NCBI GenBank assembly: GCA_945874545.1
Contig: CAMCHD010000004.1
Span: 1-34,896 of the forward strand
Source of the DNA: Akkermansia muciniphila
GTDB taxonomy: Bacteria > Verrucomicrobiota > Verrucomicrobiia > Opitutales > Opitutaceae
Length of the DNA: 34,896 bases
Direction of reading: 5' to 3'
Shown: piece after piece, positions 7,833 through 33,870 of the stretch
Layout of the letters: every line of letters starts with the position of its first letter
How positions within the stretch are numbered: position 1 is the stretch's first letter
Notes under the pieces: generated by a model
Databases searched by the model: none
Seen by the model: only the letters and a program-made list of their open reading frames with translations
Told to the model about the DNA's origin: nothing
Program-made: the position numbers and the translations under genes

Positions 7833-7893
7833 CTGCCTCCCGTCGCCGCCGCCCGTCCGCCTCCCGTCCCTTCCACACGACTCGCCCCACCCG

Positions 7894-7923
7894 AAAAACA
7901 CTCCCCCGCGTGGAGTGTTTTTT
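7894..7923 (+). terminator. Rho-independent terminator-like hairpin between GH43 paralogs 1 and 2
   Basis: AAAAACACTCC-cccgcgt-GGAGTGTTTTT followed by T: perfect 11-bp stem with A-rich 5' flank and U-tract. Confidence 0.75.
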
Positions 7924-7994
7924 CATTTCGCGCCCGGCCCCAGCCCAGCTCGCGTCTCCCGCGCCCGTGGGAACACGATCGCCCGTTTCACCCC

Positions 7995-9368: not shown

Positions 9369-9431
9369 ACCGCCCGCCGTCGTCTCAACACCCTTTCGCC
9401 CACCCGCCCCCGCTTGTCTCCCACCCTTCTC

Positions 9432-12901: not shown

Positions 12902-13101
12902 ATCGCGAAACGGGGTGGGGCGGACGGAACAGCCAAGCAAACGCCGCCCCGGGCGACGAGGGGGCATCGTTTCCGTGAGGTCGTTAGAATAGACGACAGC
13001 GGCGCACCCTTCGCCCCTCGACCCGACCTTGCCCAAACTCTGCGCTTACCGGCGCCCCCCGGTCGGCGAATCCATGTCGGCCTCCGCATCGCGTCTTCTC
13101 C

Positions 13102-15183: not shown

Positions 15184-16599
15184 ATGACCACTCCCTTGGC
15201 CCACCGCCTCTCGCTGCGCGAAAAGCTCTCCTACGGCTGCGCCGACTTCGCCTCCGTCCTCTTCTGGCACACCTTCATGGTGTATCTGACGTTCTTTTAC
15301 ACCGACGTCTACGGCCTCTCCGCCGCCGCCGTCGGCACCATGCTGCTCTTCAGCCGCATCCTCGACGGCGCGAGCGATATCCTTGTCGGCATCTGGGCCG
15401 ACCGCACCCAGACCCGCTGGGGAAAGTTCCGCCCATTCATCCTCTTCGGCTGCGTGCCTTTCGCCGTCTTCGGCGTGCTCACCTTCACCACGCCCAATTT
15501 CGACGATGCCGGTAAACTCATCTGGGCCTACATAACCTACAATGGCCTCATGACGCTCTACACCATCGTCAACATTCCCTACACCGCCATGCTCGGCGTC
15601 GCCACGCCCGATTCCGCCGAGCGCACCAAGCTCTCCTCCATCAAGTTCATCTTCGCCTTCAGCGCCGGCATCGTCGTCTCCGCCACCCTGCTGCCGCTCG
15701 CCAAGGCCCTCGGCGGCGACAACGCCCAACTCGGCTGGCAACTCGCCTTCATCGTTTACGGCCTCGTGGCGGTGATCTTTTTCCTCATCACCTTCTTCGG
15801 CACCCGCGAACGCGTCACCGCTCCCATCCCCGAGGGCACTTCCCTCGGCCGCGACCTGAAGCAGCTCTTCACCAACCAGCCCTGGCTCATCCTCGTCTCG
15901 GTCACGCTGACCTTCATCCTCTTCGTCGCCCTGCGCAGCTCCGTCTCCACCCACTACATCAAATACTTCATCTACGACGGCCAACCCGAACGCGCCCTCA
16001 CCTTCCTCGGTCAGGAGTTCACCTTCGTCGGCCTCACCTCCGCCTTCCAGACCCTCGGCCAGGCCGCCTCCGTAGCCGGCGTGCTTTTCCTCGGTCTCGG
16101 CTCCGTCCGCATGGGCAAAAAGGCCGCCTTCTTCCTCGCCTACGGCATCGCCCTCGCCACCACCGCCGGCTATTTCTTCCTCAGCCCCGGCCAGGTCGGC
16201 GCCATCTTTATCCTCCAGGCCCTCGGCTCCTTCGCCAGCGCCCCGCTCCCCGTCCTGCTCTGGGCCATGTATGCCGACACCGCCGACTACGGCGAGTGGA
16301 AGTATCGCCGCCGCACCACCGGCCTCGTGTTCTCCGCCTCCACCATGAGCCAGAAAATCGGCTGGGCCTTCGGCGCCTTCTTCGCCCTCCAGCTTCTCGA
16401 TTCCGTTGGCTTCGTCGCCAACGCCGAACCCTCCGACCAGGTCAAAAACGGCCTCGTCTGGCTCACCAGCCTCCTCCCCGTGGCCTTCGGTATCATCTCG
16501 GTCGTGCTCATGATCTTCTACCCGCTGAGCGAAGCCCGCATGAAGACCATCGCCACCGACCTCGAAAAACGCCGCGCCGACGCCACCCCTGCCGCTTAA
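15184..16599 (+). CDS. GPH-family MFS sugar:cation symporter
   Basis: LREKLSYGCADFASVLFWHTFMVYLTFFYTDVYGLSAAAVGTMLLFSRILDGASDILVGIWADRTQTRWGKFRPFIL is a canonical GPH N-terminus; YADTADYGEWKYRRRTTGLVFSASTMSQKIGWAFG. Confidence 0.92.
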   Translation: MTTPLAHRLSLREKLSYGCADFASVLFWHTFMVYLTFFYTDVYGLSAAAVGTMLLFSRILDGASDILVGIWADRTQTRWGKFRPFILFGCVPFAVFGVLTFTTPNFDDAGKLIWAYITYNGLMTLYTIVNIPYTAMLGVATPDSAERTKLSSIKFIFAFSAGIVVSATLLPLAKALGGDNAQLGWQLAFIVYGLVAVIFFLITFFGTRERVTAPIPEGTSLGRDLKQLFTNQPWLILVSVTLTFILFVALRSSVSTHYIKYFIYDGQPERALTFLGQEFTFVGLTSAFQTLGQAASVAGVLFLGLGSVRMGKKAAFFLAYGIALATTAGYFFLSPGQVGAIFILQALGSFASAPLPVLLWAMYADTADYGEWKYRRRTTGLVFSASTMSQKIGWAFGAFFALQLLDSVGFVANAEPSDQVKNGLVWLTSLLPVAFGIISVVLMIFYPLSEARMKTIATDLEKRRADATPAA

Positions 16600-16606
16600 C
16601 GTCACC

Positions 16607-18340
16607 ATGCGCACCCTCTGCCTGGCCTTGGCCACCGCCTTGGCCTTATTCAGCCCGCTCGCCCACGCCGACACCTCCGTCCCGACCGCCCCCGCCGCAT
16701 TAGGCACCGCAACCGCCGAGCCCGCCGTGGACGAGTCCGCCATGCCCTGGCTCAAAGCCCGCCCCGAGGCACTCCAGCGCTGGGACGACCTCACCTTCGG
16801 CCTCTTCATGCACTGGGACCCCTCCAGTCTGCTCGGCGTCGAAATCAGCTGGCACAAACAATCCCGCGTGGACGTCGCCGGCGAGGGCGACATCCCCGAC
16901 GCGGTTTACAACAACCTCTACCGCTCCTTCAACCCCGCCCAGTTCGACGCCCGCGCCTTTGTGCAAGTCGCCAAGGACGCCGGCATGCGCTACATCGTGC
17001 TCACCTCGAAGCACCACGGCGGCTTCTGCATGTTCGATTCGGCCCTCACCGACTTCGATATCATGAACACCGCCTTCAAACGCGACATCGTCAAAGAACT
17101 CGCCGAGGCCACCCGCGAAGCCGGCCTCGCCTTCGGTTTTTATTACTCCCAGCCCGACTGGCACCACCCCGACTTCATCCGCAAAGACTTCGACGCCTAC
17201 CGCCCCTACCTCTACGGCCAGCTCCGCGAACTCCTCACCAACTACGGCCGCATCGACATGATCTTTTTCGACGGCCTCTTTTACGGCGAAAAAGAGTATA
17301 AATCCCGCGAGCTCTTCAAAATGATCCGCGAGCTCCAGCCCGACGTCGTCATCAACAACCGCTGCGGCCTGCCCGCCGACTACGACACCCCCGAACAGGT
17401 CGTCGGCGCGTTCCAAAACACCCGCCCCTGGGAATCCTGCATGACCCTCGGCACCTCCTGGTCCTGGAAAACCTACGACACCTTCAAATCCCCCGCCGAC
17501 TGCATCCGCATCCTCGTCCAGACCGTCGGCGGCGACGGCAACCTCCTCCTCAACGTCGGCCCCATGCCCACCGGCATCATCGAGCCCCGCCAGGCCGCCA
17601 TCCTCAAACAAATCGGCGACTGGCTGCGCGTGAACGGCGAGTCCATCTACGCCCTCGAAGGCGGCCCCTACAAACCCTCCGCCTGGGGCGCCTGCACCTC
17701 CAAGGACCGCACCCTCTACGTCCACGTCCTCTCCTGGTTCGACGCCCCCGAGTTTTTCCCCGCCCTCCCCACCCGCATCGCCAGCGTCACCCGCCTCGAC
17801 GGCCGCCCCGTCGCCTTCACCCAGGACGAGCGCGGCGTGCGTTTCGAAGTCCCCGAAACCGAACGCGACCCGCTCAACACCATCCTCAAGGTAACCCTCG
17901 CCCCCGACGGCCCCGCTGCCGCCGCCATCGCGCCCATCCTCGTCCCGACCCGCTCCCTCGCCCGCTTCCAGAAAGTCACCGCCTCGCACCACCCCGATAC
18001 CGCCGCCCTCGTGGTGGACGACGACCCCGCCACCGAGTGGACCTCCCCCTCCCGCCAATGCTGGATCGAGGTGGACCTCGGTGCCGACCGCCGCTTCGAC
18101 CGGGTGGACATCCGCGAAGAAGGCCACGAGTGGGAACCCCGCACCTCCGATTTCGAACTCCTCATCCGCGCCGAAGGCACCGCCCCCGACGCCTGGACCA
18201 CCCTCGATAAGGGCAACAAAATCGGCCACACCTACAGCAAGAGTTTCGCCCCCGCCACCGCCCGCTACATCCGCCTAAAAATCAACGACGCCGGCAAACT
18301 CCCCCACTTCTCCGAGATCCAAGTTTACACTCATCCTTAA
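16607..18340 (+). CDS. GH29 alpha-L-fucosidase with C-terminal F5/8 type C (CBM32-like) module
   Basis: WDDLTFGLFMHWDPSS, YIVLTSKHHGGFCMFDSALTDFDIMN, YGRIDMIFFDGLFYG (nucleophile Asp region); C-terminal DDDPATEWTSPSRQCWIEVDLGADRRFDRVDIRE...ARYIRLKINDAGKLPHFSEIQVY. Confidence 0.93.
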   Translation: MRTLCLALATALALFSPLAHADTSVPTAPAALGTATAEPAVDESAMPWLKARPEALQRWDDLTFGLFMHWDPSSLLGVEISWHKQSRVDVAGEGDIPDAVYNNLYRSFNPAQFDARAFVQVAKDAGMRYIVLTSKHHGGFCMFDSALTDFDIMNTAFKRDIVKELAEATREAGLAFGFYYSQPDWHHPDFIRKDFDAYRPYLYGQLRELLTNYGRIDMIFFDGLFYGEKEYKSRELFKMIRELQPDVVINNRCGLPADYDTPEQVVGAFQNTRPWESCMTLGTSWSWKTYDTFKSPADCIRILVQTVGGDGNLLLNVGPMPTGIIEPRQAAILKQIGDWLRVNGESIYALEGGPYKPSAWGACTSKDRTLYVHVLSWFDAPEFFPALPTRIASVTRLDGRPVAFTQDERGVRFEVPETERDPLNTILKVTLAPDGPAAAAIAPILVPTRSLARFQKVTASHHPDTAALVVDDDPATEWTSPSRQCWIEVDLGADRRFDRVDIREEGHEWEPRTSDFELLIRAEGTAPDAWTTLDKGNKIGHTYSKSFAPATARYIRLKINDAGKLPHFSEIQVYTHP

Positions 18341-18358: not shown

Positions 18359-18400
18359 CCCATCTCCCATCTCCCATCGCCCATCTTCCATCATCCATGA
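18359..18400 (+). repeat. Heptanucleotide tandem array (CCCATCT)x~6 merging into the GH43 start codon
   Basis: CCCATCT CCCATCT CCCATCG CCCATCT TCCATCA TCCATGA; the sixth unit contains ATG 18397. Confidence 0.85.
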
Positions 18401-19812
18401 CCCCTCCCCTCCGTCTCTGCTCCGCCGCCCTGCTCGCCCTCCTCGCCGCGCTGCCCGTCGCGCGCGCCTACAACCCCTTCCTCCCCGGCTGGGAATACAT
18501 CCCCGACGGCGAACCCCGCGTCTTCGGCGACCGTATCTACCTCTACGGCTCGCACGACCGCGCCAGCGGCGACGCGTATTGTGATTACCAATACCGTGTC
18601 TGGTCCGCACCCCTCTCCGACCCCACCACCTGGACCGACCACGGCGTCAGTTTTTCCACCCGCGACCAGGAAGGCCACAAGGACGATGTCGACTACTCCA
18701 ACAACCGCCTATACGCCCCCGACCTGATCGAAAACCACGGCCAATACTGGCTCTACGCCTACGTGGTCGGCGCCCCCTGCGCCGTCGCCGTCAGCGACCA
18801 CCCGGCCGGTCCCTTCAAGTTTGTTTCCAAGATCAAGGCCCCCGCCGGCTCCAACAACGAGTTCGGCGGCTGGGGCCAATACATCGACCCCGGCGTGCTG
18901 GTCGATGACGACGGCCGCGTTTACATCTACTGGGGCTACAAACGCTCCGCCATGGCCGAGCTCGATCCCAAGACCATGGTGGACATCCTCCCCGGCACCC
19001 TGATCAACGACATCATCCCGGTCGAGGAACCCTTCAAATTCTTCGAGGGCTTCTCCCCGCGCAAAATCAACGGCGTTTACTACCTGGTCTACGCCGCCGG
19101 CGATTCCCTCGTCTACGCCACCGCCGCCAAGCCCACCGGCCCCTTCACCTATCGCGGCGCCATCATCCGCAACCGCGGCGACAACCCCGGCGGCAACATC
19201 CACGGCGGCCTCGCCCAGGTGAACGGCCAGTGGTATATCACCTACCACCGCCAGAGCCACAACGCCGAGTTCTCCCGCCGCGCCTGCGCGGAACGCGTCA
19301 CCATCGAGGCCGACGGCACGATCAAGGAGGTCGAGCAAACCTCCCTCGGCTTTAAGCAAAGCCTCGACCCCTCGGTCAAAGTCCCCGCCGACGTCACCTG
19401 TGTGCTTCGCGGCGGCCCTTACGTAATGGAGTTCGACTACAACACCCGCGCCGTCATCAACACCAAGAACGGCGCCGTGGTGGGCTACAAATACTTCGAG
19501 TTCGGCCCCAAGTCCCGCCCGCTGACCCTGCACACCGAACTGCGCGACCACGGCCTCGCCGGCACGATCGAGGTCTGGCTGGACGCCCCCAACGCCGAAA
19601 AAGGCCGCCGCATCGGCACCGTCACTATCGAGCCGACCAAGAAGGACGCCCGTTCCTACGCCCCCGGCGACGGCTGGCGCACGATCTCGGTCCCGGTGGA
19701 AAAAGTGGAGGGCCGCCACGCCCTCTTTTTCCGTTTTGTGTCGGCCTCCGGCGTGCCGACCAACGCCGCCCTCGCCGACCTCCGCAGCTTCGGCTTCACC
19801 AAGAAGAAGTAG
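18397..19812 (+). CDS. GH43 family glycoside hydrolase (xylosidase/arabinofuranosidase type) with CBM6-like C-terminus
   Basis: Signal peptide; NPFLPGWEYIPDGEPRVFGDRIYLYGSHDRASGDAYCDYQYRVWSA; QYIDPGVLVDDDGRVYIYWG; FKFFEGFSPRKINGVYYLVYA. Distinct subfamily from the three tandem GH43 proteins. Confidence 0.9.
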   Translation: MTPPLRLCSAALLALLAALPVARAYNPFLPGWEYIPDGEPRVFGDRIYLYGSHDRASGDAYCDYQYRVWSAPLSDPTTWTDHGVSFSTRDQEGHKDDVDYSNNRLYAPDLIENHGQYWLYAYVVGAPCAVAVSDHPAGPFKFVSKIKAPAGSNNEFGGWGQYIDPGVLVDDDGRVYIYWGYKRSAMAELDPKTMVDILPGTLINDIIPVEEPFKFFEGFSPRKINGVYYLVYAAGDSLVYATAAKPTGPFTYRGAIIRNRGDNPGGNIHGGLAQVNGQWYITYHRQSHNAEFSRRACAERVTIEADGTIKEVEQTSLGFKQSLDPSVKVPADVTCVLRGGPYVMEFDYNTRAVINTKNGAVVGYKYFEFGPKSRPLTLHTELRDHGLAGTIEVWLDAPNAEKGRRIGTVTIEPTKKDARSYAPGDGWRTISVPVEKVEGRHALFFRFVSASGVPTNAALADLRSFGFTKKK

Positions 19813-20103: not shown

Positions 20104-23100
20104 ATGTCATTTCGGCAGAGTGTCCTCCCCTTGCTCTTTGTCGTGTTGGCGAGCCTTTCCGCCGGATTTGTCACCGCCCCCTCCGCCCACGCCCAGACCG
20201 CCCACGACGGCTTCGCCTACACCAATGGAGCCAATCTCGTCGGACAGTCCGGCGGCTCCGGCTGGTTGGGCAACTGGCTAGCCATCGGCAGCCCCACCCC
20301 CGCCACCTCGCCCCTCATCACCTCGACCGGCCTCGACTTCCCCGGCTACACCAGCACCGGCGGAGCCCTCCGGGACACCGGCGGTGCCTTCGCCGCCACC
20401 CGCCAATGGTTCACCCCCGCCACCGGCTTCGCCAACGGCACCACCATCTGGTTCTCCTGCCTCGTCCGCGCCACCAATACCTCCACCAGCGACACCCTCG
20501 TCCTCCCCTTCGGCGACAAAGGCAGCACCACCTCCGGCCACGGCATCGCCTTCGCCACCAAGGCCACCGCCAACGGCTCCACCAGCTCGTCCGATACCTA
20601 CGTTTACCTCCGCCACGGCTCCTCCCTTCACGGCACCGACGGCACCACCTCCGGCCCCGGCCTGCTCGCCGCCCTCGGCACCTCCAAGACCATCCTCGTC
20701 GTCGGCCGCTTCACCCTCTCCACCTCTTCGAACTCCGACGTCCTCGATGTCTGGGTAAACCAAACCACCGCCCCCACCGGCGACGCCCCCCTCCGCCGCA
20801 CCGGTTTCACCGCCTCCCGCTCTTCCACCGCCAGCGATGGCCGCGCCCTCCTCTACTTCGGCAGCGCCGCCCAAAGCACGGTGGACGAGTTCCGCATCGG
20901 CACCTCCTACGCCGCCGTCACCACCGGCCTTACCCCCGCCACGCCCCCCGCCATCACCCTCGACACCCCTTCGCAGGATCAGCTTTTCGCCTCACCCGCC
21001 ACCATCTCGCTCACCGCCACCGTCACCCCCGGCGCCGCCACCATTAAAAAAGTCCTTTTCTACAACGGCGCCACCCTGCTCGGCGAAGACACCACCGCCC
21101 CGTATTCCTTCAACTTTACCAACGTCCCCGCCTCCCAGCCCAAGCTCTCCGCCCGCGTCGTTTACGATCTCACCGCCGGCCAAAATGCCGACTACGTCCA
21201 GCAATCCGCCACCCGCTCGGTCTACGTCCTCGACAACTCCCCCGTCACCTTCGCCGTCAACACCCAGGCCTCCCGCCGTGCCATCAGCCCCTACATTTAC
21301 GGCACCAACAACATCTCCAACTCCGCCCAGCTCCGAGAGTTGAACTTTACCCTCAACCGCCGCGGCGGCGAGGTCGAGTCCCGCTACGACTACCAGACCA
21401 ACTCCAATAACATCGCCAAAAACTGGTATTTCACGACCGACAGCGCCTCCGGCACCCCTGCCTCCGAGGTAGGCGGCTACATTAAAGCCACCTTCGACGC
21501 CCAAGCCGAGGTCATGGTCACCGTGCCCACCATCGGCTGGATGCCCAAACCCGGCACCCACTCCTTCTCTCAAACCAAATACGGACTCCAAACCTCTAAC
21601 GTCCCCTTTGGCTCCGGCGACGCCGGCATCGGCATCCTCCAACTCGATGCTTCCGGCAACATCATCCCTTACAACCCCGCCACCGCCGTCGCCGACCGCG
21701 CCGCCAACGCCGGCAACCCCACCGTCGAGCTCACCCCCAACCACCCCGACCCCCGCTTCCGCTCCGACCGCAACGACGCCAACTACCTGCCCGCCAACCC
21801 CCTGGCCTACCAAAGCGGCTTCATCGACACCCTCATCTCGCAATGGGGCACCGTCGCCAACGGCGGGGTTCGCTTCTACACCCTCGATAACGAACCAGGC
21901 CTCTGGGATTACGTCCACCGCGACCTCTGGGGCGGCTCCAACGTCACCAAGGAAGAGATCCGCGACTACACCATCGCCTACGGCAACATGATCCGCGACC
22001 GCGATCCCGCCGCCCAGATCCTCGGCCCCAGCGAGTGGGGCTGGGCCGAGGCCGACGACTACTATCCTTGGCTGCTCGCCCAGCTTCAAGCCAGTGAGAC
22101 CGCCACCGGCCGCCGCTCCCTCGATATCCTCACCGTGCACTACTACGCCGGCTACCCCGGCGCTGAAGGCACCCTCGACCGCCTCTTCGGCCTCAACCGC
22201 AGCACCCGCTCCCTCTGGGATCCCAACCACACCGACGAGAGCTGGATCAACTCCAAGATCAACCTCATCCCCACCATGCGCTCCTGGGTCGCCGCCAACT
22301 ACCCAGGCACCAAAATCGGCATCACCGAATACAACTGGTCCTTTAACGACTTTGATAACTCCATGGCCGGGGCCGTCATCCAGGCCGAGGTCCTCGGCAT
22401 CTTCGGCCGCGAAGGCCTCGACCTCGCCACTCGCTGGGGCTCCTCCGCCAACAATCCGTCAAATCTCATCTTCAAGGGCATGAAGATGTTCCGCAACTAC
22501 GACGGCCGCCGCTCCTCCTTCGGCGACACCTCCGTCGCCGCCACCACCTCCGCTAACCCCGACGAGATCAACGCTTTCGCCGCCGAGCGCTCCACCGATG
22601 GAGCCCTCACCCTCATGGCGGTCAACAAGCAGCCCTCCGGCGATCGCTCCACCACCTTCTCCCTCGCCAACTTCGCCCACCGCGGCACCGCCCAAGCCTG
22701 GCGCCTCGATTCCTCCGGCGTCATCGCCCGCCTGCCCGACCTCACCGTCACCGGCAACGCCCTCGCCACCACCCTGCCGCCCCAGACCATCACGATCTAC
22801 GTCCTCCCCACCGCCGCCAACCTCATCGCCCCCCAGGTCACCGCCCCCGTGCCCGCCAATGGCGCGCTCAACGTCCCCACCAGCCTCACCGCCGCCTGGA
22901 CCCCCTCCGCCAACACGTCCCTCTACCACGTCTACCTCGGCACCAGCCAATCCGCCGTCGCCGCCGCCACCCCCGCGACCTCCGGCATCTACCGCGGTGC
23001 CAGCGCCACCCCCGACTTCGACCTTACCAGCCTGACCGGTAACACCACCTACTACTGGCGCGTGGACGCCGAGGCCACCGGCGGCACCACCACCGGTGCC

Positions 23101-26100
23101 GTCTGGAGCTTCACCACCGCCCTACCTCCCCGCGGTGTCGTCACCCTCAACTCCGGAGACGGCTTCGGCTCCAGCTCCTACAACGCCGCCGGCAACTGGA
23201 GCAACTCCGCCGCCCCCTCCCTCGCCAACGACTACTTCACCTCCAACAAGGAACTCCGCAGCCCCGCCGGCGCCTCCGGCACCACCCCCTTCGGCGGTTA
23301 CTCGCTCTCCCTCGACTCCAACGGCACCCTGACGACCAAGGGCGCCAACAACAACACCCTCGCCATCGAGCGTCTGTTCCTGAACGGCGGCCGCATCCGC
23401 GTCGGCGACCAGAACAATCTGGTTACCATCTCCGGCTCCCTCGCTCAGGTCACCGCCGCCTCCACCCTCGACGCCGACCAGGCCTCCCGCACCCTCGTCA
23501 TCGCCTCTCCCCTCACCGGCTCCGGCCGCCTCACCATCGCCTCCGGCACCGGCACCGGCGGCGTCGTCCGCCTCTCCGGCGTCAACGACGCCTTCACCGG
23601 CCCCTGGATCATCAACTCCGGCGCCACTCTCCAGGTCGGCAACGGCGGCGCCACCGGCTCCCTCGGCTCCGGCGACCTCACCCACAACGGTGCCCTCACC
23701 TTTAACCGCACCGGCCTGCTCACCGTCCCCGGCGACATCTCCGGCTCCGGCACCCTCACCCTCAACTCCGCCCTCGCCCTCACCCTCGACGGCGCCAGCA
23801 CCTACACCGGAGCCACCACCGTCTCCACCGGTTCGCTCTTCGTCACCGGCTCCTTGGGCAATACCACGGTCTCCGTCGCCTCCGCCGCCACCCTCGGCGG
23901 CGACGGCGCCTTCGCCGGTCCCGTCACCGTCCAGGGCACCTTCGCCCCCGGTGCCACCGGCCAGAACTCCACCGGCCACCTCACCTTCGGTGGCTCCCTG
24001 ACCCTCGCCACCACCACCACCACCCGCCTAGAGCTCAACCGCACCGCCGCCGTCACCCACGACGCCGTGGCCGTCACCGGCGCCTTCACCGCCGCCGGCT
24101 CGCTCGTGATCACCAACCTCGGCGACGCCCTCGTCGCCGGCGATAGCTTTGCCCTTTTCAACAAGGCCCCCACCTCCGGCGCCTTCGCCAACGTCACCCT
24201 GCCCGCGCTCCCCGCCGGCCTCACCTGGCAAAACAACCTCGCGGTCAACGGCACCGTCTCCGTCCTCGGCGCCAATCCCCCCGGAGAACCCGCCGATCCC
24301 GCCCCCGCCGACGACGCCACCGGCCTCTCGCCCCGGCCCGACCTCTCTTGGACGCCCGGCGACGCAGCCGTCACCCACCGCGTTTACCTCGGCACCAACG
24401 AGGCCGCCGTCGCCGCCGCCACCCCCGCCACCGCCGGCATCTACCAGGGCGAACAAACCGCCACCACCTTCACCCCGCCCGCCGACCTCCTGCCCGCCAC
24501 CACCTACTACTGGCGCATCGACCAAGTCGGCCCCGGCGGCGTGACCGCCGGCCCCGTCTGGTCCTTCACCACCGCCGCCTACTACGTCTCCACCAGAGAG
24601 CCCTTTAACTACACCCTCGCCGCCAACCTCACCGCCCAGAACGGCGGCACCGGTTGGCGCGGCCCCTGGCTGGCCGCCACCCACTCCTCGGTCATCGACC
24701 CCCTTATCGTCGGTGCCGGCCTCACCCACCCGAACCTCGTCACCACCGGCAACGCCGTGCGCGACACCAGCGGCACCCGCTTCACCAACGCCCGCAAGTG
24801 GTTCGAGCCCGCCACCCCCATTCCGAATGGCACCACCGTGTGGTTCTCCGCCCTCGTGTCGTATAACATTAATCACAACAGCGACCTGCTCATCCTGCCC
24901 TTCGGCAACTCCACCGAGAGCCAGAACACCAACGGTCTGGGCATCGCGATCAACTCCCGCCTCACCGCCTCCGGTGCCACCGATGCCAACGCCCGCGTCT
25001 ATCTGCGCAACGCCTACACCAACTACGGTATTGGCGGCTCCACTACGGGCGCGGGCTTGAGCGCCGCCCCCATCGGCACGCCCTTCCTCGTCGTCGGCCG
25101 CTTCACCCTCTCCACCACGGCCAACGCCGACACCCTCGACGTCTGGGTAAACCCCTCCGCCGCCCCCGCCGCCAACAGCACCCTGCGCCTCACCGGCTTC
25201 ACCGCCCCCCGCACCCCCGCCACCAGCGCCGGCAACTTCGTGCTCTACTCCGGCTACAGCGCGCAAAGCGCCATAGACGAACTCGCCCTCGGCACCTCCT
25301 ACGCCGACGTCACCCGCAACATCACCGGCTCCGTCCAGCTCACCGCCACCGTCAACGGCCCTTCCCAGATCGACCTCTCCTGGACCGACCAGACCTTCAA
25401 CACCACCGGCTTCCGCCTCGAACGCGCGCCCACCCCCACCGGCACCTACACCCTGCTCGCCGAGGTCGGCCCGGGCGACGGCACCTACACCGACACCGGC
25501 CTGCCCGCCGCCTCCACCTACTGCTACCGCCTCACCGCCGACCACGCCTCCGGCGGCGTCATTTCGAGCAACATCGCCATCGAGAGCACGCCCCTCGCCA
25601 ACCACGTCCCGGTCATCCCGACCTTCGAGTTCCAAAAACGGAAACACGGCCTCTTCGTTCACTACGTGTTTGGCGGCTTCATGGGCGACTACACCGCCCT
25701 CGGTTACCAGCAAGGCTACCCCACCACCATCGACCAGCTGGTCAACGCCTTTAACGTCAACACCTTCGCCGACCAGGTCGCCAGCATGGGGGTCGAATAC
25801 CTCATCTTTACCGCCTACCACGCCAACATGAACGTGCTCTACCCGAGCACCAAGATGGCCGCCTGGCGCGGCCCCGGCCACGCCACCACTTCCCGCGACC
25901 TCCTCGGCGAGATCTGCGACGCCATGGCCCTCAAAGGCATCAAGGTCCACTTTTACATGCACATCGACATCGGCCAGGACTTCAGTCCTGCCGACCGTGT
26001 CGCCACCGGCTACGACCTCGCCGACCGCACCACTTGGAACTCGTTTATGAACGAGATCGTCGGTGAGATCGGCACCCGCTACGGCAGCCGCCTCGAAGGG

Positions 26101-28182
26101 TTCTGGCTCGACGGTGCCTACATCAACAGCACCGCACTCAACGGCCTCAAGACCGCCATGCGCAGCGTCAATCCCGACCTCATCATCGTCGGCAACAACG
26201 CCCAGTCCTTCGGCGAATACGACCTCGGTTGCAAAGAGGCCGGCAGCATCGACCAAGGCACCTACAGCATGACCCCGGACGCCCCCGCCGGCTTCCCCGT
26301 CACCCAGGCCAAGGTCAGCTCCTGGCTGGCCTATGATCGCCAGATCGCCCTCATCGCCGGCGGCGGCTGGTGGTCGTCCAACAACGAGATCAACTCCGGC
26401 CGCTACTCGGTGGACGACCTCGTGAAATACACCGCGCTCCAGGCCGGCGCCAACACCCACGGCGGCGGCGTCGCCTGGGCCGCCGGCTGCTTCGGCAACG
26501 GCTCCTTCGACCCCGACTTCCTCGCCAAGATGCAGGCCGCCTGGGGCCATCTGGAGCCCGTCTCCGAGGCCATCCACGACACCGTCCCCAGCACGTCCTT
26601 CCCTACGCCCGTCCTGGCCAGCATCGAGCGCCTCTCCGGCGGCTTCACCGCCACCATGTCGCCCGACGGCCACTTCGACTACATCCACGTCCTCCGCCCC
26701 CCCACCGGCCGCAGCCTCCGCCTGCCCCCGCCCCTCGACCTGCGCGAATTCGTCAGCGCCCACCTCCTGCCCGGCAACCAGCCCGTCACCCTCGCCGCCC
26801 AAGGCGACGGTTACCAAGTCACCCTGCCCGAAGGCGCCAACTGGGACCCGCGCAACACCGTCATCCGCCTCACCGCCCAGCTCCCGCTGCCGGTGACCAG
26901 CGCCCTCTCCGTCGCGGCCGACGTGCGTATGCTCAACATCGGCGGTGCCGGCCAGGCCGGGGCCGACACCCAGCTAGGGGTTTACCAAGGCCGCGACCGC
27001 ACCTTGCTGCGCTTTGACCTCTCCTCCGTGCCCGCCGGCAGCACCCTCCACTCCGCCAACCTCACCCTCTACGCGACCAGCAGCTACCATGACAACACCA
27101 TGGGCAACCCCGTGCAGGTCTTCCGCGCCACCAAACCGTGGACCGAGTTCGGCGCGCTCTGGGCCAGATACGACGCCACCACCAACTGGACCAACCCCGG
27201 CGGCGACGCCGTCGGCATCACCGGCCTCCAGCTCTCCGCGCCCTACGCCGTCAACACCAGCGACCCCGCCGCCAACGGCCCGTTGACCTGGGACATCACG
27301 ACCCTCGCCCAGGAATGGCTTGCAGGCACCTACCCGAACCAAGGCATGTTGATCACCCTGGGCGGCAACCAGAGCAACCTGCACTTCCATTCCCGTGAAA
27401 GCACGTCCACCGGTCTTCGCCCGAGCCTGCTGCTGACCTTCACCCCGCCCCCCGCCCCCGAGCCCGCCACCACGCCCGTCCCGGCCGATGCCGCCACCAA
27501 CGTAGCCATCAACCCCTCCCTCGGCTGGACCCCCGGCCTCCGCGCCACCGCGCACCGCGTCTTCCTCGGCACCGACTCCGCCGCCGTCGCCGCCGCCACG
27601 CCCTCCACCACCGGCATCTACCGGGGCGAACAAGCCACCACCACCTTCACCCCGAGCGCCGCACTCACCAACTCCACCACCTACTACTGGCGCATCGACG
27701 AGGTCGGCACCGGCGGCGTAACCCCCGGCACCGTCTGGAGCTTCACCACCATCGCGCCCGTCCTGCCCTACGTCCAGTGGGCGACCGAGCAAGGCCTGAC
27801 GCCCGGTCCCGACACCGCCATCACCGCAGACCCCGAAGCCGACGGCCGCTCCAACCTGCTCGAATACGTCCTCGGCGGCTCCGCGCTCACCGCCGACCCG
27901 GCCTTTAATCCCACCATCACGAACTCCGCCGCCAACCTGGTTTACACCTTCTCCCGCACCGATCGTTCCGAAGCCGACACCACCCTCGTGGTGCAATACG
28001 GCAGCTCTCTCCTCACCGTCGGCACCTGGACGAACGTTCCCGTCGGAGCGACCAGCAGCACAACCGGCGACGTGACCGTGACCGTCGCCGAAAACGCCAC
28101 CGCCCCCGACACCGTGACCGTCACGATCCCCCGCGGCGCCGCCTCCACCCTCTTCGTCCGCCTCCGCGCCACCCGCCCCTAG
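20104..28182 (+). CDS. Giant secreted multidomain protein: LamG-like / GH44-like / Fn3-like / PATR beta-strand module / Fn3-like / LamG-like / Fn3 / divergent GH29-like / DNRLRE-like / Fn3-like / conserved C-terminal module
   Basis: The listed ORF starts at 19987. ATG 20104 (MSFRQSVLPLLFVVLASLSAGFVTAPSAHAQ) is the better start: it gives a signal peptide, and 19987 lies inside a 10-bp-arm dyad. GH44 motifs FYTLDNEPGLWDYVHRDL and IGITEYNWS; GH29-like HGLFVHYVFGG and LEGFWLDGAYI; DNRLRE-like GRDRTLLRFDLSSVPAGSTLHSANLTLY. Confidence 0.82.
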   Translation: MSFRQSVLPLLFVVLASLSAGFVTAPSAHAQTAHDGFAYTNGANLVGQSGGSGWLGNWLAIGSPTPATSPLITSTGLDFPGYTSTGGALRDTGGAFAATRQWFTPATGFANGTTIWFSCLVRATNTSTSDTLVLPFGDKGSTTSGHGIAFATKATANGSTSSSDTYVYLRHGSSLHGTDGTTSGPGLLAALGTSKTILVVGRFTLSTSSNSDVLDVWVNQTTAPTGDAPLRRTGFTASRSSTASDGRALLYFGSAAQSTVDEFRIGTSYAAVTTGLTPATPPAITLDTPSQDQLFASPATISLTATVTPGAATIKKVLFYNGATLLGEDTTAPYSFNFTNVPASQPKLSARVVYDLTAGQNADYVQQSATRSVYVLDNSPVTFAVNTQASRRAISPYIYGTNNISNSAQLRELNFTLNRRGGEVESRYDYQTNSNNIAKNWYFTTDSASGTPASEVGGYIKATFDAQAEVMVTVPTIGWMPKPGTHSFSQTKYGLQTSNVPFGSGDAGIGILQLDASGNIIPYNPATAVADRAANAGNPTVELTPNHPDPRFRSDRNDANYLPANPLAYQSGFIDTLISQWGTVANGGVRFYTLDNEPGLWDYVHRDLWGGSNVTKEEIRDYTIAYGNMIRDRDPAAQILGPSEWGWAEADDYYPWLLAQLQASETATGRRSLDILTVHYYAGYPGAEGTLDRLFGLNRSTRSLWDPNHTDESWINSKINLIPTMRSWVAANYPGTKIGITEYNWSFNDFDNSMAGAVIQAEVLGIFGREGLDLATRWGSSANNPSNLIFKGMKMFRNYDGRRSSFGDTSVAATTSANPDEINAFAAERSTDGALTLMAVNKQPSGDRSTTFSLANFAHRGTAQAWRLDSSGVIARLPDLTVTGNALATTLPPQTITIYVLPTAANLIAPQVTAPVPANGALNVPTSLTAAWTPSANTSLYHVYLGTSQSAVAAATPATSGIYRGASATPDFDLTSLTGNTTYYWRVDAEATGGTTTGAVWSFTTALPPRGVVTLNSGDGFGSSSYNAAGNWSNSAAPSLANDYFTSNKELRSPAGASGTTPFGGYSLSLDSNGTLTTKGANNNTLAIERLFLNGGRIRVGDQNNLVTISGSLAQVTAASTLDADQASRTLVIASPLTGSGRLTIASGTGTGGVVRLSGVNDAFTGPWIINSGATLQVGNGGATGSLGSGDLTHNGALTFNRTGLLTVPGDISGSGTLTLNSALALTLDGASTYTGATTVSTGSLFVTGSLGNTTVSVASAATLGGDGAFAGPVTVQGTFAPGATGQNSTGHLTFGGSLTLATTTTTRLELNRTAAVTHDAVAVTGAFTAAGSLVITNLGDALVAGDSFALFNKAPTSGAFANVTLPALPAGLTWQNNLAVNGTVSVLGANPPGEPADPAPADDATGLSPRPDLSWTPGDAAVTHRVYLGTNEAAVAAATPATAGIYQGEQTATTFTPPADLLPATTYYWRIDQVGPGGVTAGPVWSFTTAAYYVSTREPFNYTLAANLTAQNGGTGWRGPWLAATHSSVIDPLIVGAGLTHPNLVTTGNAVRDTSGTRFTNARKWFEPATPIPNGTTVWFSALVSYNINHNSDLLILPFGNSTESQNTNGLGIAINSRLTASGATDANARVYLRNAYTNYGIGGSTTGAGLSAAPIGTPFLVVGRFTLSTTANADTLDVWVNPSAAPAANSTLRLTGFTAPRTPATSAGNFVLYSGYSAQSAIDELALGTSYADVTRNITGSVQLTATVNGPSQIDLSWTDQTFNTTGFRLERAPTPTGTYTLLAEVGPGDGTYTDTGLPAASTYCYRLTADHASGGVISSNIAIESTPLANHVPVIPTFEFQKRKHGLFVHYVFGGFMGDYTALGYQQGYPTTIDQLVNAFNVNTFADQVASMGVEYLIFTAYHANMNVLYPSTKMAAWRGPGHATTSRDLLGEICDAMALKGIKVHFYMHIDIGQDFSPADRVATGYDLADRTTWNSFMNEIVGEIGTRYGSRLEGFWLDGAYINSTALNGLKTAMRSVNPDLIIVGNNAQSFGEYDLGCKEAGSIDQGTYSMTPDAPAGFPVTQAKVSSWLAYDRQIALIAGGGWWSSNNEINSGRYSVDDLVKYTALQAGANTHGGGVAWAAGCFGNGSFDPDFLAKMQAAWGHLEPVSEAIHDTVPSTSFPTPVLASIERLSGGFTATMSPDGHFDYIHVLRPPTGRSLRLPPPLDLREFVSAHLLPGNQPVTLAAQGDGYQVTLPEGANWDPRNTVIRLTAQLPLPVTSALSVAADVRMLNIGGAGQAGADTQLGVYQGRDRTLLRFDLSSVPAGSTLHSANLTLYATSSYHDNTMGNPVQVFRATKPWTEFGALWARYDATTNWTNPGGDAVGITGLQLSAPYAVNTSDPAANGPLTWDITTLAQEWLAGTYPNQGMLITLGGNQSNLHFHSRESTSTGLRPSLLLTFTPPPAPEPATTPVPADAATNVAINPSLGWTPGLRATAHRVFLGTDSAAVAAATPSTTGIYRGEQATTTFTPSAALTNSTTYYWRIDEVGTGGVTPGTVWSFTTIAPVLPYVQWATEQGLTPGPDTAITADPEADGRSNLLEYVLGGSALTADPAFNPTITNSAANLVYTFSRTDRSEADTTLVVQYGSSLLTVGTWTNVPVGATSSTTGDVTVTVAENATAPDTVTVTIPRGAASTLFVRLRATRP
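21241..22815 (+). other. GH44-like catalytic domain within the giant protein
   Basis: FAVNTQASRRAISPYIYGTNN...LRELNFTLNRRGGEVESRYDYQTNSNNIAKNWYF; putative acid/base Glu in LDNEPGLW (codon 21892-21894) and nucleophile Glu in GITEYNW (codon 22327-22329). Confidence 0.75.
23130..24280 (+). other. Autotransporter-associated beta strand (PATR)-like module within the giant protein
   Basis: GSGRLTIASGTGTGGVVRLSGVNDAFTGPWIINSGATLQVGNGGATGSLGSGDLTHNGALTFNRTG...LTLDGASTYTGATTVSTGSLFVTGSLGNTTVSVASAATLGGDGAFAGPVTVQGTFAPG; homologous to the module in the GH31 protein. Confidence 0.8.
25615..26880 (+). other. Divergent GH29-like (alpha-L-fucosidase superfamily) domain within the giant protein
   Basis: FEFQKRKHGLFVHYVFGGFMGDY, YLIFTAYHANMNVLYPSTKMAAWRGPGHATTSRDLLGEICDAMALKGIKVHFYMHIDIGQDFS, GSRLEGFWLDGAYINSTALNGLKTAMRSVNPDLIIVGNN. 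Lacks the canonical KHHDGF/WDS motif. Confidence 0.6.
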
Positions 28183-28649: not shown

Positions 28650-28836
28650 ACGCGCCCCCTCCGCGCCAAAGCCGCTGCCCGCCCCTATAGCCCCGACCTC
28701 CGGTCGGGGTCCTCAAGACCGCGCCCGCGAAAAACCCGTGGCCTGCGTTTTCATGACAACGCCCGCCACCTCCCGGCTGTCGTCATCCGCCAATCCTCGC
28801 CAAACTACCTGCGCGTGTCGTCTGCCGCCGCCCCCC

Positions 28837-31800
28837 ATGAAACGTTCCCCTCTCCCCCTGCCCGCCCTCCTGCGCCGCGTCTTCGCCTTCCTGTTTGCCG
28901 CCCTATCCGCGGCCCTGCTCGCCCCCGTCGCCGCCCTCGCCGCCCCCCTCGGCAACTACCAGTCCCACGTCGTCTCCACCAACCCGGCCCGGATCGAAAT
29001 CACCGATACCCTTGGCAACCGCCTCCGCCTCCGCGCCTACGGTGACAACATGGTCCGCGTGCAGGCGGTCGGTGCCTCCGCCGCCTTCTCGCCCGACAAC
29101 CGCTACCTCATGATCGAGAACCACGCCCTCGGCGGCGCCCTCTCCATCCTTTCCGACACCGCTTCCTCCCTGCTCATCGCCAACGGCGACATCCGCCTCA
29201 CCGTATCCAAAAACCCCCTGCGCCTCTCCTACGCCGACGCCGCCGGGGTGCCCCTGCTCGCCGACTCCACCGGCATCGACCTCGACCCCGTCACCCTGCG
29301 CTACGTCTTCACCCCCGACTCCACCGAAGACTTCATCGGCTACGGCCAAAAACGCCTCTCCCTCCAGGACACCTTCCAACTCGCTGGCCGCACCGAGCGC
29401 CGCAACTACGGCGAGGACGGCTACCCCGGCCGCGGCGCCCAGGGTGTGCTCATCGTGCCGTTCTACATGTCCAGCAAGGGCTACGGTTTCTTCGCCCACA
29501 CCACCTACACCCACGAGGGGCGCTTCAACAACGCCGGCGACTACAGCTTCCGCGTCGAGCTGAAGAACTTCTCCCCACCCGAGGCCGACTACTTCTTCAT
29601 CTACGGCCCCCAGCCCGCCGCCATCCTCGACCACTACACCCGGCTCACCGGCCGCCCTCGTATGCCGCGCAAGGCCATCTTCGGCATCCACCTCTCCGAC
29701 AACGAGCCGTCCCAGCCCACCATCAACCAGTCCTGGTGGCAGACCAAGGTCCAGGCCCACCACGACGCCGGCTTCCCGCTCGACCACCTCGTCTACGACA
29801 ACGACTGGCGCGCCGCCAGCCCGCTCACCGGCGGGGCCATCGGCCAGTGGGGCGGCTCCCAGTTCGCCTTCGAGCTCACCCGCTACCCCGACCCCGCCTC
29901 CTTCCGCACCTGGTATGACGCCCGCGGCCTCATGCTCACCCTCGATCTCAACCTCAACAACTGCAACGACTCCGCCGGCTGGCTCCCGTCCTACAACATC
30001 CCCCCTTACAACGCCACCAACACCAAAACCACCGACACCTCCGACCCCGATTACAGCAACCCCGCCACCCGCGCCTGGCTCTGGCAGCTCTTCTGGGACA
30101 AGGCCTTTAACCCCGCCCTCGGCTACCCCGGCGACGCCATCTGGCTCGACGAGTCCGACGGCATCTACCGCGCCGACGGCCAGCTCCTCGCCAACGGCCG
30201 CCCCTGGCACGAGATGAAGAACTACTACTTCTTCCTCACCGCCCAAGCCGCCGTCGCCGAAGGCTGGGACAACGCCGAGGGCGGCGCCACCCCCGGCATC
30301 GGCGAGGCCAAGCGCCCCTGGGTCTGGATTCGCGGCGGTAGCCCCGGCATGCAGCGCTACGCCACCCACTGGACCGGCGACATCGATTTCACCGAGCCCT
30401 TCTACCACGGCAGCATCGTCGGCATGCAGGCCTCGGGCCTCGCCGGGTATCCGTTCTACAACCACGACGCCGGCGGCTTCGGCACCAACAGCAGCAGCTC
30501 CGACCCCCTCGCGAAAATCCCCGGCCCCAACGACGTTTACTACGCCGAGTGGGGCATGGGCCTCGGCAGCTTCAGCCCCATCTGGCGCCCCCACGGCTAC
30601 AACAACCCCCGCTGGCCCCTCCACCGCAACGCCGCCAGCCAGGACGCCTTCCGCCGCTACGGCACCCTGCGCTACGAGATGATGCCCTACATCTACACCC
30701 TCGCCCATCGCGCCCACGAAAGCGGCCTGCCCATGTCCCGCCCCATGGCGCTGGTGTATCCGGATCACCCCGACGCCTGGCTGCCCGCCCAGGAACTCCA
30801 ATACCACTGGGGCGACGCCTTCCTCGTCGTTCCCCCGCTCCATCTCGACGGCGTCAGCGAATCCCGCACCGCCTGGATCCCCCCCGCCCCCAAGTGGTAT
30901 GACTTCTGGACCGATCTCCCCGTCTTCGCGCCCACCTCCGGCGGCTTTCACACGTTTAACACCACCCCCGGTCACCTCCCGCTCTTCGTCAAAGCCGGCT
31001 CCATCATCCCGCGCCAGGATTTCGCCGTCACCACCGCCGCCCTCTCCGACGCCAAGCTCCACCTCGACGTCTACGCCGGCGCGTCCGGCGCCTACGAACT
31101 GATCGAGGACGACGGCGTCACCGAGCGCTTCCGCACTCGCGGCGAGCAACGCCGCACCGCCTTCACCTACACCGAGGCCGCCCTCACCCCCGCGCCCGCC
31201 ACCGGCACGCTCCAGATCGGCGCCGCCACCGGCACCTACACCGGCGCCTCCGCCAGCCGCACCTACCTCGTGCGCCTGCACGGCCTCACCGCCGCGCCCA
31301 CCCAGGTCACGGTCAACGGCACCCCGCTCCCCGTCCAGGCCGCCCCCCTGCCCGCCGGCGACACCACCGCCGCCGTCTGGGACGCCGCCGCCCGCCACGC
31401 CGTCGTGCGCCTCTCCTCCCGCGCCGTCACCGCCGCCGCCACCGTCGCGCTTACCTTCCCCGACACGCCCGCCGCCCCCACCGCCCTCTCCGCCACCACG
31501 GTATCCAGCAGCCAGATACAACTGGCCTGGACCGACAACTCCGACAACGAGACCGGCTTCACCCTCTTCCGCAAGACCGGTGCCAACGGTATCTACGCCC
31601 AGCTCGCCACCGTCGCCGCCGGCGTCACCACCTACGCCGACACCGGCCTCGAGGACGAAACCGAGTATTTCTACCGCGTCGCCGCCACCAACGCCGACGG
31701 CAACTCCGCCTACGCGCCCGAGGCCTCCGCCACCACACTGCCCATCGCGCCCGTGGCCCCCGCCGCCCTCGTCACCACCACCCTCGCCCTCGACACCGTC

Positions 31801-33870
31801 CGCCTCACCTGGACCGACACCGCCGATAACGAAACCGGCTTCCGCATCGAGCGCGCCCTCGCCCCCGGCGGCCCCTTCGTCGTCATCGCCAACCTCGGTG
31901 CCGGCCTCACCACTTACGACAATACCGGCCTGCCCGCCAGCAGCACCTACTACTACCGCGTCGCCGCCTTCAACACCGCCGGCGACTCTCCCTTCTCCGG
32001 CGTCGTCTCCGGCACCACCGTGCCCCCGTCGCCCCCTGCCGCGCCCACCGGGCTCGCCGCCACCACCGGCACCGGCACCCAGATCAACCTTTCCTGGATC
32101 GATGCCTCCACCAACGAGCTCGGCTTCATCCTTCAGCGCAAAACCGGCTCCGGCGGCACCTACGCCCAGATCGCCTCCCTCGCCGCCGGCACCACCAGCT
32201 ACTCCGACATCGGCCTCGCCGGCAACACCACCTACTTCTACCGCGTCGCCGCCACCAACCTCGGCGGCGAATCCACCTTCAGCAACCAGTCCAGCGCCAC
32301 CACCCCCGTCATCGGCACCGTGACCCTGACCAGCGGCGACGGCTTCGAGACCACGTCCTTCAACGTCGCCGGCAAGTGGAGCAACGGCCAGGCCCCCAGC
32401 GCCGCCAACGACTACGTCACCAACGGCAACATGCTGCGCACCCCAAACAACTCCACCGGCAACCTGACCTTCGCCGGCAACTCCCTCACCGTCAGCGCCA
32501 ACGGCACCATCCTGCTCAAAGGCGCCGGCGATAGTTCCATCACCGTCAACGCCCTCAAACTCAACGGCGGCCGCCTCCGCATGGGCTGGGACAACACCCA
32601 GACCGTCTTCGGCAACCTCCAGGTCGTCGCCAACTCGATCCTTGACCCCAACAAAGCCAACCGCGTGCTCGTGCTCGCCGCCCCGCTCTCCGGCTCCGGC
32701 GGCCTCACCCTCGATTCCTCCGAGGGCAACGGCGGCTTGCTCCGCCTCGCGGTGGACAACCCCGCCTACACCGGCAACTGGACCATCCCCAACGTCGCCG
32801 GCAAACAGGCCACCGTCCAGGTCGGCGTCGGCGGCACCGCCGGTTCGCTCGGCTCCGGCAGCGTGACCAACGACGTCGCCCTCATCTTTAACCGCTCCGA
32901 CGCCTACACCGTGGCCAACCCCATCAGCGGCATCGGCACGGTCAGTATCACCGGCGGCGGCACCCTCACCCTGCTCGGCACCCACAGCTACACCGGTGCC
33001 ACGTCCCTCTCTGGCGCAAATCTGTTCGTGAACGGCACCCTCGGCAACACCACCGTCACGGTCAACTTCGGCTCCGTGCTCGGCGGCACCGGCACGCTCG
33101 GCGGCCCCGTCTCGATCTTCGGCGACTTCGCCCCCGGCGCGAACGGCATCGGCACGCTCACGGTCAACAACGCCATCAACCTCGGCGGCGGCAGCATCTT
33201 CGAACTCAATACCGCCTCCAGCCACACCCACGACCGCCTCGTCGCCAGCGGCGGGCTCACCGTCTCCGGCCCCCTTCTCGTGGTGAACACCGGCCCCGCC
33301 CTCGTCACGGGCAACACCTTCGCCCTCTTTAACAAGGCTCCCGGTGGCAACTTTGCCACGGTCACCTTGCCCGCCCTCGGCCCCGGCCTGCTCTGGCAAA
33401 ACGACCTCGCCGTCGACGGCACCCTCCGCGTCGTCGCCGCCCCCGTGCCGCCCTACGTCCAGTGGGCGACCGACCAGGGACTGACCTTGGGCGGCAACGA
33501 TGCCGTGAATATCGACCCGGAGGCCGACGGCCGCGTCAACCTCCTGGAATACGTGCTCGGCGGCTCCGCGCTGGACGCCGACGCCGCGTTCTCCCCCGTG
33601 CTGACGGTCTCGGGCTCCGACGCGGTCTTCACCTTCACCCGCGCCGACCGCTCCGAAGCCGATGCCACGCTCGCGGTGGAATACTCCGACTCGCTGGCCA
33701 CCGGCGCGACGTGGACCGTCGTGCCGGTCGGCGCGACGAGCTCCGTGTCGGGTGCCGTCACGGTCGGCATCGCCGAAAACGGCATCGCGGCCGACTCCGT
33801 CGTGGTGACGATCCCGCGAGGTGCCTCGCCCACGTTTTTCGTCCGCCTGCGCGCCAGCCGCGTGCCCTAA
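28837..33870 (+). CDS. Secreted GH31 family alpha-glucosidase/alpha-xylosidase with three Fn3 modules, PATR-like beta-strand module and conserved C-terminal module
   Basis: ATG 28837 gives signal peptide MKRSPLPLPALLRRVFAFLFAALSAALLAPVAALA. GH31 motifs: FIGYGQKRLSLQ, FGIHLSDNEPSQPTINQSWWQTKVQAHHDAGFPLDHLVYDNDW, AIWLDESDGIY, HWTGDIDFTEPFYHGSIVGMQASGLAGYPFYNHDAGGF. Then Fn3 repeats (TGFTLFRKTG..YFYRVAATN) and PATR strands. Confidence 0.9.
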   Translation: MKRSPLPLPALLRRVFAFLFAALSAALLAPVAALAAPLGNYQSHVVSTNPARIEITDTLGNRLRLRAYGDNMVRVQAVGASAAFSPDNRYLMIENHALGGALSILSDTASSLLIANGDIRLTVSKNPLRLSYADAAGVPLLADSTGIDLDPVTLRYVFTPDSTEDFIGYGQKRLSLQDTFQLAGRTERRNYGEDGYPGRGAQGVLIVPFYMSSKGYGFFAHTTYTHEGRFNNAGDYSFRVELKNFSPPEADYFFIYGPQPAAILDHYTRLTGRPRMPRKAIFGIHLSDNEPSQPTINQSWWQTKVQAHHDAGFPLDHLVYDNDWRAASPLTGGAIGQWGGSQFAFELTRYPDPASFRTWYDARGLMLTLDLNLNNCNDSAGWLPSYNIPPYNATNTKTTDTSDPDYSNPATRAWLWQLFWDKAFNPALGYPGDAIWLDESDGIYRADGQLLANGRPWHEMKNYYFFLTAQAAVAEGWDNAEGGATPGIGEAKRPWVWIRGGSPGMQRYATHWTGDIDFTEPFYHGSIVGMQASGLAGYPFYNHDAGGFGTNSSSSDPLAKIPGPNDVYYAEWGMGLGSFSPIWRPHGYNNPRWPLHRNAASQDAFRRYGTLRYEMMPYIYTLAHRAHESGLPMSRPMALVYPDHPDAWLPAQELQYHWGDAFLVVPPLHLDGVSESRTAWIPPAPKWYDFWTDLPVFAPTSGGFHTFNTTPGHLPLFVKAGSIIPRQDFAVTTAALSDAKLHLDVYAGASGAYELIEDDGVTERFRTRGEQRRTAFTYTEAALTPAPATGTLQIGAATGTYTGASASRTYLVRLHGLTAAPTQVTVNGTPLPVQAAPLPAGDTTAAVWDAAARHAVVRLSSRAVTAAATVALTFPDTPAAPTALSATTVSSSQIQLAWTDNSDNETGFTLFRKTGANGIYAQLATVAAGVTTYADTGLEDETEYFYRVAATNADGNSAYAPEASATTLPIAPVAPAALVTTTLALDTVRLTWTDTADNETGFRIERALAPGGPFVVIANLGAGLTTYDNTGLPASSTYYYRVAAFNTAGDSPFSGVVSGTTVPPSPPAAPTGLAATTGTGTQINLSWIDASTNELGFILQRKTGSGGTYAQIASLAAGTTSYSDIGLAGNTTYFYRVAATNLGGESTFSNQSSATTPVIGTVTLTSGDGFETTSFNVAGKWSNGQAPSAANDYVTNGNMLRTPNNSTGNLTFAGNSLTVSANGTILLKGAGDSSITVNALKLNGGRLRMGWDNTQTVFGNLQVVANSILDPNKANRVLVLAAPLSGSGGLTLDSSEGNGGLLRLAVDNPAYTGNWTIPNVAGKQATVQVGVGGTAGSLGSGSVTNDVALIFNRSDAYTVANPISGIGTVSITGGGTLTLLGTHSYTGATSLSGANLFVNGTLGNTTVTVNFGSVLGGTGTLGGPVSIFGDFAPGANGIGTLTVNNAINLGGGSIFELNTASSHTHDRLVASGGLTVSGPLLVVNTGPALVTGNTFALFNKAPGGNFATVTLPALGPGLLWQNDLAVDGTLRVVAAPVPPYVQWATDQGLTLGGNDAVNIDPEADGRVNLLEYVLGGSALDADAAFSPVLTVSGSDAVFTFTRADRSEADATLAVEYSDSLATGATWTVVPVGATSSVSGAVTVGIAENGIAADSVVVTIPRGASPTFFVRLRASRVP

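Follow-up and report, generated by a model that had tools for sequence, protein, structure and literature searches.

The stretch of DNA that we analysed (the window, 34,896 nt) is an entire contig of a draft genome that is fragmented into 398 contigs and 83% complete, and the gene cluster that it carries may extend past it. Genes for GH26, GH95, GH97, GH31, four GH43 proteins, a canonical GH29 alpha-L-fucosidase and two MFS_2 sugar transporters lie in the window together with one giant open frame (Table 1). This frame runs uninterrupted through 2,731 codons. When the stretch was simulated 200 times with a first-order Markov model, the longest frame had a mean of 475 codons and never exceeded 965, so the single giant frame noticed in an earlier, sequence-only reading of this DNA stands. 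Because a typical signal peptide results when translation begins at position 20104, we took this as the probable start, which gives a protein of 2692 aa. With this signal peptide the protein is probably exported and would be a secreted protein, possibly held at the surface.

The single frame encodes both a full GH44 domain (residues 376-904) and a complete GH29-like barrel (residues 1841-2254), which are linked and flanked by beta-strand modules. The linker between the two domains spans ~930 residues, and ~1,250 residues separate the first motif of the GH44 domain from the first motif of the GH29-like domain, a small correction to the ~1300 aa estimated previously.

Table 1. Genes, domains and presumed catalytic residues in the window
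Feature	Position	Strand	Basis or remark
Big_5, PKD, LVIVD-repeat protein	3-1823	-	runs off contig end
GH26 (mannanase-like) with PA14	1993..3975	+	
GH95	4021..6363	+	closest solved relative 7kmq, the Xanthomonas xyloglucan alpha-1,2-L-fucosidase XacAfc95
GH43	6408..7799	+	
GH43 with CBM35	7806..9368	+	
GH43 with CBM35	9414..10802	+	
MFS_2 sugar transporter	11270..13036	-	codon usage fits genome
GH97 (alpha-glucosidase/alpha-galactosidase type)	13102..15093	+	
MFS_2 sugar transporter, second	15184..16599	+	
Canonical GH29 alpha-L-fucosidase with F5/8 type C domain	16607..18340	+	
GH43 with CBM6	18397..19812	+	
Whole open frame, 2731 codons	19987..28182	+	probable start 20104, 2692 aa
Predicted signal peptide	20104..20196	+	read from translation
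Beta-rich module, unassigned family, copy 1	20197..20943	+	49% identical to copy 2
Big_7 Ig-like domain	20947..21126	+	Pfam E 3e-10
GH44 catalytic domain, residues 376-904	21229..22815	+	Pfam E 6.5e-35; 3ii1/3fw6 E 1e-113
Glu597 in LDNEP, presumed GH44 acid/base	21892..21894	+	in register with 3ii1 motif
Glu742 in ITEYNW, presumed GH44 nucleophile	22327..22329	+	in register with 3ii1 motif
Ig-like/Big_5 module copy 1	22843..23130	+	Pfam Big_5 (3 stretches); DNA repeats D6, D9
PATR-like repetitive beta-strand region	23131..24282	+	PATR 2.7e-4, below curated cut-off
Big_5 module copy 2	24337..24578	+	DNA repeat D7, 81% to 27514-27755
Beta-rich module, unassigned family, copy 2	24574..25350	+	49% identical to copy 1
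Fn3-like module	25339..25617	+	38-45% identity to Fn3 repeats of neighbouring GH31 protein
GH29-like catalytic barrel and C-terminal beta-domain, residues 1841-2254	25624..26865	+	profile, alignment, model, tree
Asp2003 (domain D171) in GFWLDG, presumed nucleophile, end of beta4	26110..26112	+	conservation; model
Glu2045 (domain E213) in CKEAGS, presumed acid/base, end of beta6	26236..26238	+	conservation; model
DNRLRE / Disaggr_repeat domain	26974..27438	+	NF033679 E 1.7e-24; PF06848 E 3.9e-12
Big_5 module copy 3	27478..27750	+	Pfam E 9.9e-7
C-terminal module	27751..28179	+	67-75% to GH31 protein and contig C11 protein
GH31 with Fn3 repeats, PATR-like region and same C-terminal module as fusion	28738..33870	+	

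The GH44 domain and the accessory modules

The N-terminal catalytic domain matched PF12891 over residues 435-682 (E 6.5e-35; 121.5 bits compared with a curated cut-off of 25.1), and NCBIfam likewise identified it as GH44. Residues 376-904 could be aligned over their full length with GH44 enzymes of known structure, with 3ii1 as the best match (E 1e-113) and the GH44 xyloglucanase 2ykk among the others, and the motifs that carry the two presumed catalytic glutamates, LDNEPGLW and GITEYNW, were located at residues 594 and 739. On these sequence matches the membership of the domain in GH44 is secure, as the sequence-only reading had proposed. Most characterised GH44 enzymes have been described as cellulases, and high xyloglucanase activity is documented for GH44 enzymes (PMC4780118).

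Of 273 genomes from the order, 8 carried GH44, as did 11 of 390 from the phylum (at a stricter cut-off than in the order scan) and only one of 15 from the genus, the source genome itself, with all 14 genus mates lacking it. Since GH44 is this rare at all three levels, the domain may have been acquired. The other GH44 matches in the order and phylum fell in frames of 427-1,033 aa, and no GH29-like domain was found at any of these loci.

The accessory modules named in the sequence-only reading fared unevenly. The DNRLRE domain was clearly recovered, and Pfam confirmed Big_5 in three stretches in addition to it, while the PATR match stayed below the curated cut-off and the Fn3-like module was recognised by its similarity to the Fn3 repeats of the GH31 protein. 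The PATR-like region shares 48% identity with its counterpart in that protein, which the next gene encodes. The module previously called LamG-like, of ~250 aa and present in one N-terminal and one central copy, had no Pfam match. Its model (pLDDT 46) is too low in confidence to judge but leans to a beta-sandwich, and the matches of this low-confidence model to galectins, CBM40 and a GH43-CE enzyme provide a lead only; the duplicated module is a possible carbohydrate-binding module. The C-terminal module, which recurs more weakly in many proteins of the source genome, may be a sorting domain. It is ~130 residues long and occupies 33436-33861 in the GH31 protein, whose copy is 67% identical; within it, DPEADGRSNLLEY resembles a calcium-binding loop.

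The GH29-like domain and its clade

The second catalytic domain scored above the Pfam cut-off (25.2 bits) for Alpha_L_fucos (PF01120), with 39.1 bits in the whole protein and 44.0 bits as an excised domain, in an alignment that covers part of the profile only; PF01120 also matched 26 of 26 aligned clade members at E up to 0.01. A profile built from the 26-sequence alignment of the domain and its relatives aligned end to end with solved GH29A structures (E 2e-29). When the AlphaFold2 model of the domain (pLDDT 89.8, pTM 0.92) was compared with the PDB, all of the top 50 fold matches were GH29 fucosidases (TM ~0.64-0.70), with ~18% identity to GH29 in the fold alignments. The profiles and the model support membership of the fucosidase superfamily (GH29 type), consistent with the barrel that had been recognised from motifs, and the domain and fold searches confirmed GH44 and a GH29-type domain, placing neither region in another fold. 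GH139 was rejected as an identity because the strand-helix alternation of the model is that of a TIM barrel; GH139 enzymes are (alpha/alpha)6 toroids with an inverting mechanism (PMC12282258).

In GH29 enzymes, the nucleophile Asp lies at the end of beta4 and the acid/base at the end of beta6, and helix alpha5 is absent (PMC10154630). The model has the same arrangement: strand 167-171 (beta4) ends in D171, strand 209-214 (beta6) has E213 at its end, and strands 195-199 (beta5) and 209-214 are not separated by a helix. The Asp was kept in 41 of 41 relatives as well as in 31 of 31 canonical GH29 sequences, while the Glu was invariant in the 26-sequence alignment and present in 39 of 41 sequences of the wider set, with gaps in the other two. 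The 26-sequence alignment contains 13 invariant residues, among them H21, H74, Y119, H121, D171 and E213. Retention of the catalytic pair supports the view that the domain is an active retaining enzyme.

Relatives were collected by scanning one genome per species across 85,462 species. A single-sequence scan of the genome contigs gave no relatives; an alignment-based scan then gave 25 loci, distributed among Verrucomicrobiota, Calditrichota, Bacteroidota, Actinomycetota and Bacillota. The viral contig collection contained no relative of the GH29-like domain. We know of no characterised member of this clade.

In a 78-sequence tree, the 41 GH29-like sequences formed one group (support 98/99) apart from 31 canonical GH29s, which were taken from related genomes rather than from a broad GH29 reference set. 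At least 37 of the 41 have Ala, Ser or Tyr in place of the second His of the HH motif (Ala in the source protein), the Arg/Lys that follows the motif is Asn in 37 of 41, the source protein included, and the GNLLLN stretch of canonical GH29s is GGGxxWA-like. In contrast, essentially all of the canonical GH29s compared keep the second His and the Arg/Lys, two positions that we took as pocket residues and not as a definition of the family. Because the clade stands apart from the GH29s that were sampled and these conserved pocket residues are altered, we consider fucose a likely specificity and no firmer than that.

Genes of the clade adjoin GH95, GH78 and GH106 alpha-L-rhamnosidases, GH98 or further GH29-like copies, with few families recurring in the neighbour tally across the clade. 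The GH95, GH78, GH106 and GH98 neighbours tie the clade to deoxy-L-sugar glycans in general, suggesting a wider role in these glycans. The loci with GH78 or GH106 alpha-L-rhamnosidases near the GH29-like gene are L034, L033, L040, L050 and L052. In Cohnella ginsengisoli (L039), two tandem GH29-like genes adjoin a GH98 gene, and one of the two encodes a 1,506-aa protein with SLH (S-layer) domains. Another genome of the source genus (G603) encodes two stand-alone GH29-like proteins that are ~32% identical to the source domain. The source genome itself has 17 PF01120 matches at E up to 1e-20, compared with 1 to 24 in the genus mates searched; its predicted fucosidase repertoire is large.

The alternative that survives best is that the domain is an active retaining exo-glycosidase for another sugar (alpha-L-galactose, another L-sugar or a modified fucose), acting on the same or another hemicellulose. 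The replacements at the second His and the Arg/Lys in nearly the whole clade, its separation from the sampled GH29s and the alpha-L-rhamnosidases beside several relatives all favour this reading, and GH29 already includes galactosidases and alpha-glucosidases (PMC10154630). However, H21, H74, Y119, D171, E213 and W242 are kept in the clade comparison and the locus is rich in fucosidases, and we regard a non-fucosidase as a serious but minority possibility.

The clade is possibly a new subfamily. Our broader proposal, which we put forward tentatively, is that it constitutes an undescribed family or subfamily whose specificity is not canonical alpha-L-fucose, fused here to GH44 to give a backbone cutter and a side-chain trimmer in one chain. 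We consider the clade a more interesting part of the finding than the pairing, since it points to a coherent group within the GH29 superfamily in which the catalytic residues are kept and the pocket is changed.

Proposed substrate and function

Among solved GH95 enzymes, 7kmq is by far the nearest to the GH95 protein (E 4e-253), ahead of 4ufc (E 2e-183); 7kmq is XacAfc95, the alpha-1,2-L-fucosidase encoded in the xyloglucan locus of Xanthomonas citri (PMC8245568). An endo-glucanase-type gene, a GH95 fucosidase and a GH31 gene, the combination by which we recognised a xyloglucan locus, occur together in the cluster; relatives of the GH31 protein include both alpha-xylosidases and glucosyltransferases, and its role may be either. 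No GH35, beta-galactosidase, esterase or TonB/outer-membrane transporter was identified among the window genes scanned. Elsewhere in the source genome, a GH35 beta-galactosidase-type gene is found on contig C213, and fucose-isomerase-type proteins gave weak matches that lie over the cut-off. Based on the closeness of the GH95 protein to XacAfc95, the cluster genes, the GH35 gene of the genome and the fucose-isomerase-type proteins, we favour fucosylated xyloglucan as the target of the cluster.

A lesser alternative is that the cluster, with the fusion, acts on mannan, glucomannan or arabinoxylan rather than on xyloglucan. The GH26 protein, which is nearest to endo-mannanases, and the four GH43 proteins, one of which is close to an arabinofuranosidase/xylosidase, speak for it, as does the description of characterised GH44 enzymes mostly as cellulases (PMC4780118). 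The much closer match of the GH95 protein to 7kmq than to 4ufc argues against this alternative, as does the combination of GH31, GH29, GH95 and an endo-glucanase, which fits fucosylated xyloglucan best, and we consider a non-xyloglucan target rather unlikely. Loss of catalysis, with the GH29-like domain kept for binding or as a structural part, would fit the altered pocket residues. It is very improbable, however, since the family alignment, the source copy included, shows no variation at the positions of the nucleophile and the acid/base. Least likely, and in our judgement unlikely altogether, is an assembly chimera in which two genes were joined via repeated beta modules: the contig comes from a fragmented draft, the gene carries repeated modules (Big_5 copies are 81% identical over 242 nt) and a search for the same fusion found no second genome among the 273 order, 390 phylum and 15 genus genomes (overlapping samples), but the linker has no near-identical copy in the source genome (long matches reach at most 78%, with higher values in short stretches only), internal repeats of 76 nt or more do not exceed 83% identity (88% is reached by very short ones alone), the codon usage of the gene does not vary along its length and matches that of its neighbours (r 0.91-0.98), modules from both halves recur in the source genome, and the gene is placed in a coherent cluster.

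The reading that we prefer, and to which we give about an even chance, sees the protein as a secreted glycoside hydrolase with two catalytic domains that belongs to a cluster for xyloglucan degradation, combining endo-cleavage by GH44 with side-chain trimming by the GH29-like domain, for which fucose is the best guess. Outside the cell, the GH44 domain would cut xyloglucan or related glucans at internal sites of their beta-1,4-glucan backbone. On the same polymer, the GH29-like domain would remove the sugar at the end of a side chain, with alpha-L-fucose as the most likely one. From the conserved residues we infer a retaining two-Glu mechanism for GH44, and a retaining exo-glycosidase with Asp2003 as the nucleophile and Glu2045 as the acid/base for the GH29-like domain. 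The long beta-strand modules may hold the two active sites apart, the linkage of both domains may raise their local concentration, and the GH95, GH29, GH31, GH43 and MFS proteins of the cluster would finish and import the resulting oligosaccharides. Endo-cleavage coupled to side-chain removal, as suggested by the sequence-only reading, is supported by sequence, fold and gene context, while fucose, xyloglucan and the cooperation of the two domains remain putative. The pocket changes in the clade, its rhamnosidase neighbours, the mannanase-like GH26, the lack of an identified GH35 or TonB gene in the window, and the single genome with the fusion count against this reading.

Both halves of the fusion are domain types from known superfamilies, and what is new is that they are paired. 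We found no description of a GH44-GH29 enzyme in the literature, in agreement with the earlier statement that no such pairing was known. If confirmed, the protein would be, as far as the searches made can tell, the first single-chain enzyme to combine an endo-glucanase with an exo-enzyme of the fucosidase type for a fucosylated hemicellulose.

Comparison with known systems

The GH44 domain resembles the GH44 endoglucanases and xyloglucanases (the 3ii1/3fw6 cellulase, 2e0p, 2ykk and 2yih) from end to end and in both Glu motifs. Known GH44 enzymes are accompanied by CBMs or GH9 partners (PMC4780118), and none was found with a GH29-type domain, in contrast with the source protein. The GH29-like domain shares with GH29 alpha-L-fucosidases (9eu1/9eu4 of GH29A, Bacteroides 2wvv, and SpGH29 of GH29B) the barrel, the C-terminal beta-domain and the Asp/Glu positions, and its Asp-Glu spacing of 42 residues is close to that of SpGH29 (D171/E215; PMC10154630). 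It differs from these enzymes in forming part of a separate clade, in its ~18% identity and in its altered HH and Arg/Lys positions.

Like the xyloglucan loci of Xanthomonas (PMC8245568) and Cellvibrio japonicus, the cluster contains both a GH95 and a GH31 gene, and it further resembles the Xanthomonas locus in having an endo-enzyme in the cluster and an MFS transporter adjacent. It differs from the known loci in that a GH44 with a GH29-like domain attached takes the place of GH74 as the endo-enzyme, the cluster adds GH26, GH97 and four GH43 genes, and the window is without an identified GH35, esterase or TonB transporter. GH44 also occurs in bifunctional proteins with other partners, among them the GH9-GH44 enzyme CelJ from Ruminiclostridium thermocellum (PMC4780118). 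CelJ pairs two backbone-cutting enzymes, whereas the source protein would pair an endo-enzyme with an exo-type enzyme. An engineered mimic of CelJ, in which Cel9X was joined to Cel44O, improved xyloglucan depolymerisation (PMC4780118).
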